NCBI GenBank assembly: GCA_021793295.1
Contig: JAJYTA010000003.1
Coordinates: 1 to 64,000, forward strand
Reading direction: 5' to 3'
Source: Actinomycetes bacterium
GTDB lineage: Bacteria; Actinomycetota; Actinomycetes; Jiangellales; Jiangellaceae
DNA: 64,000 bases
Of this stretch, positions 4,777 through 26,999 are shown in pieces. Each line of letters opens with the position of its first letter. The first letter of the stretch is position 1. The notes below the pieces were generated by a model. The model saw only the letters and a program-made list of their open reading frames with translations, searched no databases and had not been told where the DNA came from. Made by a program: the position numbers and the translations under genes.

Positions 4777-5724
4777 TCAGCGCTGTACGTCCCCGGCGGC
4801 GCCGAATGCGTCGAGGTCGGATCGCGTGGGTAGGCCCTCCCAGTCGCCGAGCGACGTGCAGGCGAAGGCGCCGGCTGTGGCCGCGGTGGCCAACCTGGTC
4901 CCGGCGTCACGCCCGGCCATCAACTCGGCGAGGTACCCGGCCACGAACGCGTCCCCGGCACCGACCGTGTCGACCACGCGCACCGGCACCGGAGGCGTGG
5001 TGCGCACCACGCCGTCGATGAACGAGACCGCGCCGTCGGCGCCGAGCTTGATGACGACCTGCGCAGGTCCGAGTCGAGCCAGGCCTTTCGCCTGCTGCTC
5101 CGGCTCGGCATCGTCGACGATCAGCGCCGCCTCCTCCGGGCCGGCGTACACCACGTCGGCCCGTGCGACCAGTGGCTCCAGGGCCGCGGCGGCAGTCTCG
5201 CGGTCCCACAACGCCGAGCGATAGTTGATGTCCAGCGACACCGTGGTACCGGCGCTTCGGGCGACCTCGACCGCGTGTTCCACCGCCTCGGCCGGGCCCG
5301 CGCCGAGCGCCGGGGTGATGCCCGTGACGTGCAGGACGCTGGCCGCCGCGACGGTGTCGGCGCTGATGTCAGCGGCGGTCAGCGCCGCCGCGGCGCTGCC
5401 GGAACGGTAGTACCGAACGTGCGTGCGGAGGCTGTTCGGGCGCTCCTTCACCATCAAGCCGGTGGGCCGCTCGGTGTCGACGCCGGCTCGCGCCACCACC
5501 CCCTCGGCCCGCAGTTCCCGCAGGATGAGCTCACCGAACGAGTCCGCGCCGACACGGCTGATCCACGTCGCCGGTTGTCCGAGCCGCCGGACCCCGATGG
5601 CCACGTTCATCTCCGCGCCGGCCACCGAGAGCTTGAGGTCGCGGTGCGTCGCCCAGGGGCCGACCTCGGCCGCGGCCATCAGCGCCATCGTCTCGCCGAA
5701 CGTGACGAGCCCGCCGCCGGTCAT
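4777..5724 (-). CDS. PfkB-family sugar kinase, probable 2-dehydro-3-deoxygluconokinase
   Basis: GDAFVAGYLAEL PfkB signature; abuts a KDPG aldolase gene. Confidence 0.85.
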   Translation of the reverse strand: MTGGGLVTFGETMALMAAAEVGPWATHRDLKLSVAGAEMNVAIGVRRLGQPATWISRVGADSFGELILRELRAEGVVARAGVDTERPTGLMVKERPNSLRTHVRYYRSGSAAAALTAADISADTVAAASVLHVTGITPALGAGPAEAVEHAVEVARSAGTTVSLDINYRSALWDRETAAAALEPLVARADVVYAGPEEAALIVDDAEPEQQAKGLARLGPAQVVIKLGADGAVSFIDGVVRTTPPVPVRVVDTVGAGDAFVAGYLAELMAGRDAGTRLATAATAGAFACTSLGDWEGLPTRSDLDAFGAAGDVQR

Positions 5725-6377
5725 GCCTGGCCCCGGGCGTCGCGTACGGCGGCCAGCGCGGTGCGCGCGCGATCAGCCAGGGCACCCAGGTCACCGCCAT
5801 CGGCGGCGTCGCCGAGCAGCGGGCCACCCAGGCCGACGCCAACGGCTCCGGCCTTGATCCACTCGCCGATGTTGGTCAGGCTCACACCACCGGTGGGCAT
5901 GATCGCGATATCCGGGAACGGCCCGGCCACGCTGGTGATGTACGACGGGCCGAGCGCCGAACCGGGGAACAGCTTGACCACCGCCGCCCCACCGCGCCAG
6001 GCAGCCAGAATCTCCGTCGGCGTGAACGCCCCTGGGTAGGCCGGAATCCCGGCGTCACGAGCGACGCGAAGCACCTCGGGCTCGACGGACGGCGACACCA
6101 CGAACCCTGCCCCCGCCTCGACGACCGCTCGCGCCTGCTCGGCGTCCACGACGGTCCCAGCGCCCACGTCGACGGTGTCGGGCAGCTGCGCACGCACCGT
6201 GCTGATCGCCTCCACCGCTCCCGGCGAGGTCAGCGTGATCTCCAGGCACGTGATGCCGGCGTCGACCAGCACCTTGCTGATGTCGGCGAACCGCTCGGCC
6301 GACCGGGCCCGCAGGATCGCCATCACGCCGGTTTCGGTGAGCTGGGGGCTCGGTGGAATGCGATCAGTACCGCTCAT
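5721..6377 (-). CDS. Bifunctional 4-hydroxy-2-oxoglutarate/2-dehydro-3-deoxy-phosphogluconate (KDPG) aldolase
   Basis: MAILRA, GAGTVVDAEQARAVVEAGAGFVVSP, AAVVKLFPGSALGPSYI, IMPTGGVSLTNIGEWIKAGAVGVGLGG. Confidence 0.92.
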   Translation of the reverse strand: MSGTDRIPPSPQLTETGVMAILRARSAERFADISKVLVDAGITCLEITLTSPGAVEAISTVRAQLPDTVDVGAGTVVDAEQARAVVEAGAGFVVSPSVEPEVLRVARDAGIPAYPGAFTPTEILAAWRGGAAVVKLFPGSALGPSYITSVAGPFPDIAIMPTGGVSLTNIGEWIKAGAVGVGLGGPLLGDAADGGDLGALADRARTALAAVRDARGQA

Positions 6378-13263: not shown

Positions 13264-13416
13264 CGCCGTGAAGATCGCCGTGCACAAATATGCCGGCCCG
13301 ACCGGGTCGTGAAGGTCGTCGTGCACATATACGCCGGCGCGACCGGGTCGTGAAGATCGTCGTGCCGATTCGGGCCGACCATAGCGGCACTTTCGCGCAC
13401 GACGATCTTCACGACC
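13264..13416 (+). repeat. Repeat family 1, locus A: 3 direct copies of GGTCGTGAAGATCGTCGTG (13264, 13305, 13346; 41-bp period) plus one inverted copy (13398-13416)
   Basis: Read directly; first copy is CGCCGTGAAGATCGCCGTG, second has one change; third and inverted copies are exact with a 33-nt loop. Confidence 0.95.
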
Positions 13417-23030: not shown

Positions 23031-24233
23031 CTATTTCAGGAAGTCGGGGACGTCGAGATCGTCGCCCGTGGCTGTCGGAACGATACGCCGCTGCTCGCGG
23101 GGCGGAGCGGGGGGCGAGGACGCGGACTCGCCTTCCTGCTCACCCGAGGCCTCGGCGGACTGCTCGGCCGCTGACGACCCGGACTGCTCCGACTCGCCTG
23201 CGCCAGCCGTACCCACCGAGCCGATGGCTGCGGCCGCCGCGGGACCATCGGCCTTGCGGACCGAGCCCAGCTCGCGGCGGGTCGGCAAGCCTCCGTCGAA
23301 CCCGGCGGCGATCACCGTCACCCGGACCTCGTCGCCCAGCGCGTCGTCGATGACCGCACCGAAGATGATGTTCGCCTCGTCGTGCGCGGCTTGCGCGACG
23401 AGGTTGGCCGACTCGTTGATCTCGAACAGTCCGAGGTCGGAGCCTCCGGACACCGAGAGCAGCACGCCGTGCGCCCCGTCGATCGACGCCTCGAGCAGCG
23501 GTGACGAAATCGCCATCTCAGCTGCGGCGACGGCACGATCTTCGCCTCGCGCGGATCCGATACCCATCAACGCCGACCCCGCATTGCTCATGACGGACTT
23601 GACGTCGGCGAAGTCGAGGTTGATCAGCCCAGGGGTGGTGATGAGGTCGGTGATGCCTTGCACACCCGAGAGCAAGACCTGGTCGGCGCTCTTGAACGCG
23701 TCCAGGACGCTGACCTGGCGGTCGCTGATGGACAGCAGCCGGTCGTTCGGTATGACGATGAGGGTGTCGACCTCTTCGCGCAGCGCTTCGATGCCCGCTT
23801 CGGCCTGCATCGCCCGGCGCCGGCCCTCGAACATGAACGGGCGCGTGACGACACCGATGGTCAGCGCACCGAGCGAGCGGGCGATGCGAGCCACCACCGG
23901 CGCGCCGCCGGTGCCGGTGCCGCCACCTTCGCCCGCGGTGACGAAGACCATGTCAGCGCCCTTGAGGACTTCTTCGATCTCCTCCGCGTGGTCTTCGGCT
24001 GCGGTGCGGCCCACCTCAGGGTTCGCGCCGGCCCCCAGCCCGCGCGTGGCGTCGCGGCCGACGTCGAGCTTGACGTCGGCATCGCTCATCAGCAACGCCT
24101 GAGCGTCGGTGTTGATCGCGATGAACTCGACGCCCTTGAGCCCGACTTCGATCATTCGGTTGACGGCGTTGACGCCGCCGCCGCCGATGCCGACGACCTT
24201 GATCACCGCGAGGTAGTTCTGCGGGGCAGTCAC
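23031..24233 (-). CDS. ftsZ: Cell division protein FtsZ (GTG start)
   Basis: [38 protein letters not shown]-terminal [10 protein letters not shown]. Confidence 0.98.
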
Positions 24234-24263
24234 GTCACATCGCCTCTCGTTCGAGTTCAACTC

Positions 24264-24475: not shown

Positions 24476-24667
24476 GGTCGTGAGGCGGTGCTGCCGGGCC
24501 TGGGTGCTCGCGGCCGGTCGTGAAGATCGTCGTGGCCGCGCCCCGGCCGGCACCGGGTCGTGAAGATCGTCGTGGCCAAAACTGCCGCTCGAGGCCGGTC
24601 GTGAAGATCGTCGTGATGACAAACGCCGCTATAGGGCGCATCTGGGACCACGACGATCTTCACGACC
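24476..24667 (+). repeat. Repeat family 1, locus B: direct copies at 24516, 24556, 24597, a probable degenerate copy at 24476, and an inverted copy at 24649-24667
   Basis: Three exact 19-mers at 40/41-bp spacing; exact inverted copy after a 33-nt loop. Confidence 0.95.
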
Positions 24668-24823
24668 CCGATCCCCCGAGCGGATCCGCCGCATCTTGGG
24701 CCGGCGACTGTGTCCCCTGCCGATGCCGCCCGACGTGTCCACAGGGCACCGAGCGGGTCGTCGGTTTCCACATTTTGCGGAATCGGCCTGGCCCGCGGGA
24801 CCGAGATCTGGCCCGATTCATGT

Positions 24824-25771
24824 ATGACACCTCACATTCGCCCCGCTGATACCCCCGACCGCGCCATCGCCGAAATGGCTCAGCACCAGTTCGGCGTCTT
24901 CTCCCGGCAGCAGGCACGTCAGGCCGGTTTGTCTCGGCATCAGATGGACACCCGCCTCGGCAACGGCCGGTGGGAGACCCTGCATCCTGGTGTATTCAGG
25001 CTCCGGGGTGCGCCCGACAGTCCCGCGGCAACCGCGGTTGCGGGCTTGCTCTACGCCGGGGCGCAAGCCTGGTTCAGCCATGCGACCTCGGCGCGACTGC
25101 ACGGGATCGAGCCGCATCTGTGGCACCGGTGGATCTGGATCACCGTGCCGGTCGCGGTACAGCGTCTGGCCAGACCAGGGTTGAAAATCGTCCGCTCCCG
25201 CCGGATCGACGGGTTCACCGCTACCGCACATGGGCATCCGGTGATGTCGGCCGAACGAAGCGTGGTCGACCTCGCCGCCCTCCTCGATCCGCCGGTCTAT
25301 CAGCAGGTGCTCTACGACGTGGTCAGCCGCGAGGTGGTCACCGTCGACGGCATCCTCGCCGCCGCCGACGACTTCGGCGGTCGTTGCGGCATCGCGCTCG
25401 TTCATCAGGCGATCTCGGAGTTCGATCCGACCTTCGAGTCCGGCGTGGAGTACGAGGCCGACGCGCTTTTCCGCGCAGCCGGCCTGGTGTTCGAGCGTCA
25501 GGTCGAGATACGAGACAACGGGATCCTGCTCGCCCGCCTGGACTTCGCCGATGAAGGCATCAAACTGGGCGTCGAGATCGACGGAGTGCGATACCACTCG
25601 TCGGCGCAGGCACGGCACTACGATCGCGAACGTGACCGCGCGCTTCGCCGCCGCGGTTGGCAAGTCGAACGCTTCACCACCAACGACGTGCGGCAACGCC
25701 CGCGCTCGATGCAGCGTCACCTCGTGGAGGTCTACCGCGAGAGATCGTCGGGGCTCCGGCTGGCGTCGTGA
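24824..25771 (+). CDS. AbiEi-like N-terminal domain plus DUF559 (Vsr/PD-(D/E)XK-like) C-terminal domain protein
   Basis: FGVFSRQQARQAGLSRHQMDTRLGNGRWETLHPGVFRL (AbiEi-type wHTH); LDFADEGIKLGVEIDGVRYHSSAQARHYDRERDRALRRRGWQVERFTTNDV (DUF559). Confidence 0.82.
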   Translation: MTPHIRPADTPDRAIAEMAQHQFGVFSRQQARQAGLSRHQMDTRLGNGRWETLHPGVFRLRGAPDSPAATAVAGLLYAGAQAWFSHATSARLHGIEPHLWHRWIWITVPVAVQRLARPGLKIVRSRRIDGFTATAHGHPVMSAERSVVDLAALLDPPVYQQVLYDVVSREVVTVDGILAAADDFGGRCGIALVHQAISEFDPTFESGVEYEADALFRAAGLVFERQVEIRDNGILLARLDFADEGIKLGVEIDGVRYHSSAQARHYDRERDRALRRRGWQVERFTTNDVRQRPRSMQRHLVEVYRERSSGLRLAS

Positions 25772-25800
25772 CGCACGGCGGGGTTCCCGCGAGCGACACG

Positions 25801-25991
25801 GGTGTGGAGGCGTCGTGGTGCGTACCGCCGCTCAACGCCGGTCGTGAAGATCGTCGTGAGGACTACTGCTGCACAGACGGGTCGTGAAGATCGTCGTGAG
25901 GACTACTGCCGGGCAGAACCGGTCGTGAAGATCGTCGTGGCGGAGATTGCCGGCATATTGCGCGCATTCTCACACGAGGATCTTCACGACC
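25801..25991 (+). repeat. Repeat family 1, locus C: direct copies at 25840, 25880, 25921, a probable degenerate copy at 25801, and an inverted copy at 25973-25991
   Basis: Three exact 19-mers at 40/41-bp spacing; inverted copy CACGAGGATCTTCACGACC (one change) after a 33-nt loop. Confidence 0.95.
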
Positions 25992-26046: not shown

Positions 26047-26172
26047 CGCACCCCGGGCGCCTCCCGGCCCAACGCACCCCGAGGCCGCCCCACCCAGGGC
26101 GCCTCCCGGCCCACGCACCCCGAGGCTGCCCCACCCAGGGCGCGGATCCTGGCGCAACGCACCCCGAGGCGC
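26047..26172. repeat. Imperfect tandem repeat (about 41-bp unit GCCTCCCGGCCCAACGCACCCCGAGGCCGCCCCACCCAGGGC), ~2.5 copies
   Basis: GAGGC(C/T)GCCCCACCCAGGGCGC at 26081 and 26122; CGCACCCCG at 26047, 26073, 26114 and 26158. Confidence 0.75.
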
Positions 26173-26258: not shown

Positions 26259-26999
26259 TCACTGGGTCACGGCAGGATGGTTCGGCGCTGAGACGTCATA
26301 GACCGACGGGGTCTCGTCCTGCGCCTGCATCAACGCGAGCAGGACCTCTGCCTTGCGGTCCAGGTCGTCGGCCGTCCCCAGCTCCACCATGACGTCATCG
26401 CCCAGCGCCAGCCGGATGTCGGCCTCGGAATGCGCGTGCACCGACTCCACCTGCTCGAGCACGTCAGTCGGCAGGCCGGTCAGTACGGCGACCCCCGCGG
26501 CCCGCACCTGCTGGTCGGCGTCGTCCGACGATGCCTCCAGGACCGGCAAATTCTCCGGCTTGGCCTCGGACCGGGCGAACATCATGCCCGATCTGTCGAC
26601 GCCGAACCAGGCTCCGTCGGCCTGCATGGCGGCCTCGGCCACGCGGGGGGTGACGTCGATGGTCAAGGTGTTCGGCCAGGAGCGGTGGACGTCGACGTCC
26701 TCGATGTCGGGCAGCTCCTGCACTCGGGACGCGACGGCGCCGGTGTCGACGCGAGCCAGCGGGGTGCCGATAGGTGCGCGAGCGGCCTCGAGCACGTCAT
26801 CGGCCAAGGCGCCGCGCACACCCTGCACCTCGGCGTCCTTCACGGCCAGCACACTCGACCAGCCCACCAGCCACACCAGTGTCCCGACACCGAGCGCCAC
26901 GATCACGGCGAGCAGCATGCCCAGCAGGCGCCGCAGCCGCCGCCGGCGAGCTCGGGCAGCGAAGGCCTGCGAACCCGTCGACCGCGACGCAACACTCAC
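26259..26999 (-). CDS. ftsQ: Cell division protein FtsQ/DivIB
   Basis: Single TM followed by POTRA-like VKDAEVQGVRGALADDVLEAARAPIGTPLARVDTGAVASRVQELPDIEDVDVHRSWPNTLTIDVTPR. Confidence 0.92.
   Translation of the reverse strand: MSVASRSTGSQAFAARARRRRLRRLLGMLLAVIVALGVGTLVWLVGWSSVLAVKDAEVQGVRGALADDVLEAARAPIGTPLARVDTGAVASRVQELPDIEDVDVHRSWPNTLTIDVTPRVAEAAMQADGAWFGVDRSGMMFARSEAKPENLPVLEASSDDADQQVRAAGVAVLTGLPTDVLEQVESVHAHSEADIRLALGDDVMVELGTADDLDRKAEVLLALMQAQDETPSVYDVSAPNHPAVTQ

Follow-up and report, generated by a model that had tools for sequence, protein, structure and literature searches.

An AbiEi-DUF559 nuclease gene of an actinomycete is bracketed by dispersed repeats, with which it probably forms a REP-like system

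The nuclease gene between ftsZ and ftsQ

We analyzed a stretch of 64,000 nucleotides (the window; assembly GCA_021793295.1, contig JAJYTA010000003.1) from an actinomycete of the family Jiangellaceae, whose genome is called G000 here. An earlier, sequence-only reading of the window had described a 315-aa protein with an AbiEi-like wHTH and a DUF559 domain, encoded between ftsZ and ftsQ on the opposite strand and with a repeat array on either side. Coordinates and Pfam searches confirmed this description (Table 1). The protein matched MTES_1575 REase (E = 7.5e-12), DUF559 (E = 2.3e-8) and AbiEi_4 (E = 6.1e-6), all over the Pfam cut-offs, and residues 15-188 matched PADLOC models of AbiEi (9e-23). 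Foldseek with an AF2 model retrieved AbiEi (6y8q, E = 2.9e-6), the catalytic domain of I-Bth0305I (TMt 0.77) and Vsr; the model is moderate overall (pLDDT 69), its best parts being the N-terminal winged helix and the C-terminal domain. Among 54 members of the family, E209 and D240 were conserved in 100%, E251 in 98%, D253 in 93% and H258 in 87%. Judging from the alignment, E209, D240, E251 and D253 are the putative catalytic residues of a Vsr/EDxHD-type nuclease domain.

Table 1. Coordinates of the genes, domains and repeats in the window
Feature	Position	Strand	Details
Solo R array, built like the flanking ones, without nuclease gene	13265..13415		
ftsZ, left neighbour of the nuclease gene	23031..24260	-	
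Left R array	24517..24666		R at 24517, 24557 and 24598 (+); inverted R at 24649-24666
69-bp inverted core of the left array	24598..24666		R-33 bp-R'
Gene for AbiEi-type wHTH + MTES_1575/DUF559 (Vsr-like) nuclease	24824..25771	+	315 aa
AbiEi_4 winged-helix domain	24866..25003	+	residues 15-60, Pfam
MTES_1575/DUF559 nuclease domain	25433..25729	+	about residues 204-302, Pfam
Right R array	25841..25990		R at 25841, 25881 and 25922 (+); inverted R at 25973-25990
69-bp inverted core of the right array	25922..25990		
ftsQ, right neighbour of the nuclease gene	26259..26999	-	

The R arrays in the window

The repeat that builds the arrays on both sides of the nuclease gene is 18 bp long and is called R here (GTCGTGAAGATCGTCGTG). 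Each flanking array contains three direct copies of R at a spacing of 40-41 bp and a terminal inverted R 51 bp further. There were 13 matches to R in the window, while 0.14 would be expected by chance (16-mer, up to 2 mismatches). The left array may have an extra degenerate unit at about 24476 and the right one at about 25801. The end of the left array is separated from the start codon by 157 bp. The right array had been placed 29 bp past the stop codon, which is correct only when the degenerate unit near 25801 is counted; the first clear R lies at 69 bp. The repeats had also been described as lying in the same orientation. This applies to the direct copies of R in both arrays, but an inverted R closes each of them, and therefore the arrays are not purely direct. 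The solo array of the window had no counterpart at this position in the congener G001, where the aligned flanks lay 66 bp apart instead of 448 bp. A search of the window against Rfam gave no match. We also observed a second tandem array at 26049-26170, which adjoins the right array and has the same period of 41 bp; its sequence is unrelated to R.

R as a dispersed family in the genome

We counted R in the whole genome of 4.67 Mb and found 174 copies at no more than 1 mismatch, while the reversed control gave 0; the repeat counts for this genome are based on searches and on fetched stretches. The fetched stretches contained 43 clusters of R with the regular layout (R,~41)n-R-51-R'-(~41,R')n. 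With exact 12-bp arms we found 23 cores, every one of them 69 bp long in a search range of 59-89 bp, and 39 cores with looser arms were gathered afterwards at the spacing of the 69-bp core. In the collected cores R was near-invariant and the spacers were variable. Information content defined the half-site GGTCGTGAAGATCGTCGTG-N9-GCCG as the repeated unit, common to 76 inverted-core copies and 66 direct copies. We rejected the core as a strict hairpin, because the bases inside, adjoining R, were unpaired in the inspected examples; the conserved GC/GCCG fits repeated half-sites. By inspection, which concerned R only, no GTAG was present at R, and the 76 core half-sites read gccGGTCGTGAAG... On contigs C44, C60, C79, C181 and C206 of this genome R lay within about 120 bp of the ends, which is consistent with assembly breaks at repeats.

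The dispersal of R bears on what the gene may do. The sequence-only reading had suggested a defence cassette that moved as a unit between direct repeats, and in this form the suggestion was not supported: the arrays are dispersed genome-wide, and in the fetched stretches only one pair of arrays brackets such a gene. A defence or toxin-antitoxin role would agree with the AbiEi domain found by PADLOC and with a nuclease domain of a type known from conflict and anti-phage proteins. However, the missing AbiEii partner was confirmed, as no AbiEii-type gene adjoins the nuclease gene, whose neighbours are ftsZ and ftsQ. Such a role also leaves the genome-wide repeats and the co-varying flanking palindromes described below unexplained, and we regard it as very improbable.

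A host protein that binds R arrays at many loci through its AbiEi-like part and controls genes or DNA topology was also considered. Its own gene would then be bracketed for autoregulation. The AbiEi fold and the near-invariant R among variable spacers, as is seen with binding sites, are compatible with such a regulator or chromosome organiser. On the other hand, matching copies stand downstream of genes as well as upstream, the repeats turn over among species of one genus, and the nuclease residues are 93-100% conserved among members of the family. We find a regulator unlikely.

Close orthologs carry related repeats

Only five other genomes of the family yielded a close ortholog (41-60% identity), namely G014, G012 and G010 (Phytoactinopolyspora alkaliphila, P. 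endophytica and P. halotolerans, respectively), G006, and G004, a Jiangellales MAG; at the next match the bit score fell from 213 to 57. R-like repeats stood beside the ortholog in all six genomes, G000 included. They were clear on both sides in G000, G004, G006 and G014, and upstream only in G010 and G012. The view of gene and arrays as a cassette was borne out. At least 5 copies of R were present in 4/6 genomes with the ortholog and in 1/16 without it (Fisher p = 0.009). Dispersed R at no more than 1 mismatch was absent from G010 and G012, whose own variants of R fall outside this genome-wide count. In G005 R was present and the ortholog was not found (genome 75% complete).

In the three Phytoactinopolyspora genomes the ortholog also lies in the ftsQ-ftsZ gap, where it is co-oriented with both genes, while the copy in G000 is reversed. 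In G006 it is located elsewhere. In other relatives the nuclease gene is absent from this gap. The sequence-only reading had named two observations that would speak against its proposal. One was the gene at this site without arrays; the three Phytoactinopolyspora do have the gene in the same gap, yet with their own related repeats. The other was arrays spread over the genome with no link to insertions; the arrays are indeed genome-wide, but in relatives the gene is paired with related repeats.

The gap itself showed further features in relatives without the gene. Other solo palindromes were present in it (L133 4306-4376, L132 4388-4459, L131 4063-4140, L134 4754-4837 and L139 4383-4447), and therefore it looks like a hot spot for palindromes. 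In G016 the gap (L135 3231-4922) contains an ORF that by eye resembles a DUF222-HNH (13E12-type) protein.

Palindromes flank distant AbiEi-DUF559 genes

We wanted to see whether pairs of repeats flank other DUF559 genes, as the sequence-only reading had proposed to check. For 48 distant AbiEi-DUF559 genes from across the class, the 400-bp upstream flank of each was matched against its 400-bp downstream flank. Matched elements of at least 30 bits were found for 31/48 genes and for 9/380 random placements (p = 5e-27; since the test loci are related, the p-values given here overstate independence). The random placements covered 900 bp each and were made in 20 stretches of 20 kb drawn from some of the same genomes. 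A control with predicted genes and 300-bp flanks gave 2/125, compared with 25/54 AbiEi-DUF559 genes, the six close orthologs included. At the 30-bit threshold 17/48 distant genes had no matched pair. One locus (L151, from an Actinomycetota MAG) contains a gene fragment at the edge of a chimeric-looking contig and was uninformative.

The flanking elements were mostly palindromes of about 55-75 bp, and different subfamilies of the protein had different palindromes, so the outcome of the proposed check was positive. Similarity of the palindromes tracked similarity of the proteins (Mantel r = 0.736, p ≤ 0.0005, 40 loci, 2000 permutations, shared ancestry uncorrected). G000 has a second AbiEi-DUF559 gene (L073 5024-6070), which is flanked by a pair of identical 54-bp palindromes that do not resemble R; the whole unit spans 4971-6198. 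There were no further copies of this palindrome in about 350 kb of fetched sequence of the same genome. The top match to PF18741 in G000 (L031, contig C263) lay within an open frame of 1378 aa, probably a large multidomain protein.

These results show a pairing of AbiEi-DUF559 genes with repeats across the class. That an accessory gene and common repeats became neighbours by chance might be suggested by the frequency of repeats in G000 and by the other palindromes in the ftsQ-ftsZ gap of relatives. We give it hardly any credence, as orthologs at other places keep their own repeats, and both the matched flanks (31/48 versus 9/380) and the Mantel result argue against it.

Dispersal and alternative states of one site

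We searched for dispersed copies of two of the flanking palindromes. Within the family, the palindrome GATCATGGAGA was found only in genus g3 (0-45 copies per genome), and GAGCAGACGCAAA in 20 of the 41 sampled genomes of genus g9 (up to 31 copies); the controls gave zero in both cases. Judging by gene content, g3 is probably Jiangella and g9 probably Mycobacterium. G015 has 45 palindromes and no evident gene of the L113 type, which suggests that the repeats can occur as orphans. A plasmid collection contained no relative of the g9 protein.

The L113 unit has discrete limits: copies related to it align approximately from outer palindrome end to outer palindrome end, and several alignments extend about 20 bp beyond it. 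G007 has two copies of the unit, the second at another place. The L113 site is occupied by the unit in G007, by the inverted unit in G003, by a solo palindrome in G019 and by half a palindrome in G015. Further, we searched 199 genomes for the site downstream of pafA (TIGR03686) and found unit, solo palindrome and remnant as its states. In g9 the unit was present in five genomes and the solo palindrome in G430 and G495; the other inspected genomes had shorter remnants or none, and in G488 the terminal ~11 bp of the palindrome remained. Such remnants point to frequent loss at this site. We saw no target-site duplication at the copies inspected by eye, and gene-free sites carry a palindrome or a remnant.

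Such states might be produced by a homing-type selfish gene, the nuclease of which cuts solo palindromes so that break repair copies the gene in, the repeats having arisen otherwise. A symmetric target would allow either orientation of the gene. This would suit the fold match to the catalytic domain of a homing endonuclease, I-Bth0305I, the occurrence of one site as unit, inverted unit and solo palindrome, and the different orientation of the gene in the ftsQ-ftsZ gap of G000 and Phytoactinopolyspora. However, homing alone leaves the dispersed repeats unexplained (up to 45 palindromes, 174 R, diverged interiors), and repeated loss explains the states of the pafA site as well as insertion does. 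We consider homing a possible but rather doubtful explanation.

Proposed model and its meaning

We think it likely that the nuclease gene and the arrays are one REP-like system, that is, dispersed palindromic repeats together with the repeat-bracketed gene of a dedicated protein acting on them in trans. Of the two domains, the winged helix resembling AbiEi would probably bind the half-site GTCGTGAAGATCGTCGTG-N9-GCCG, which is present twice, face to face, within the 69-bp core. A cut at this core or close to it would probably be made by the Vsr/EDxHD-type nuclease domain. When the break is repaired or enters recombination, repeats would be spread and rearranged, and now and then the gene would be duplicated, inverted or lost. 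It would be the protein, rather than host recombination alone, that drives dispersal, and the host may have adopted the system for some use. The earlier "selfish" reading fits this model.

More tentatively, and with somewhat less confidence than an even chance would give, we propose a class-wide, so far unrecognised kind of minimal mobile element of actinomycetes consisting of palindrome, AbiEi/Vsr-type nuclease gene and palindrome, in which the palindromes multiply as non-autonomous copies. With a symmetric site as the target of the nuclease, insertion of the gene into a palindrome, its inversion there and its departure would all become possible.

The best-known REPs served by an enzyme of their own are those of the gammaproteobacterial RAYT systems, which have HUH transposases. 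If the REP-like model is true, a second, unrelated enzyme family plays the same role in actinomycetes, which would mean convergent evolution of REP systems, and the origin of REPs becomes testable in another phylum. It would also assign a role to a large group of proteins that are currently labelled "AbiEi antitoxin" or "DUF559" and would caution against calling AbiEi-DUF559 genes toxin-antitoxin or defence. Such a system may also account for the dispersed short palindromes of genus g9, with the unit after pafA. In the open-access literature, with most subscription journals and preprints outside coverage, we found no earlier description of the pairing of repeat and nuclease, and none of the papers listed for DUF559 and AbiEi dealt with both. 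By their titles and abstracts, the DUF559 papers found there did not deal with palindromes.

Comparison with known systems

The window protein resembles type IV AbiE toxin-antitoxin systems in its N-terminal AbiEi fold (6y8q, PADLOC AbiEi). It differs from them in that it is fused to a nuclease domain and has no AbiEii toxin gene adjoining. With the EDxHD/Vsr-fold nucleases (I-Bth0305I, E. coli Vsr, and Caulobacter VsrA, which has a DUF559 domain; PMC12907096) it shares the C-terminal fold and the conserved acidic residues, but it has a fused AbiEi domain and flanking palindromes, and the mismatch-repair or homing role of other members is not implied. It also belongs to the domain family of MTES_1575 REase (PF18741), over the Pfam cut-off. 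The Vsr-REase of PMC3710099 is one of several domains of a large protein, along with HEPN and transglutaminase, whereas here we observe a small AbiEi fusion accompanied by repeats.

The closest parallel in organisation is REP/RAYT (TnpAREP, REPtrons) of gammaproteobacteria. In RAYT systems the gene lies between two repeats and co-evolves with them, palindromes are dispersed, and the presence of the gene correlates with how abundant the repeat is (PMC2817692). Similarly, the window gene lies between two repeat copies, many repeat copies are dispersed (R in G000, the palindromes in g3 and g9), and repeat and gene co-vary, as far as the phylogeny-uncorrected Mantel test indicates. The partner here is, however, a wHTH fused to a Vsr-like nuclease, while RAYT is an HUH Y1 (IS200/IS605-type) transposase; a RAYT partner was ruled out in G000, as a profile search of this genome gave no match to Y1_Tnp (PF01797). 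The host is an actinomycete, the palindromes are about 55-75 bp long, and GTAG is absent at R. Flanking repeats, dispersal and co-variation, combined with an unrelated enzyme and an actinomycete host, therefore point to a REP-like way of working outside the RAYT family.
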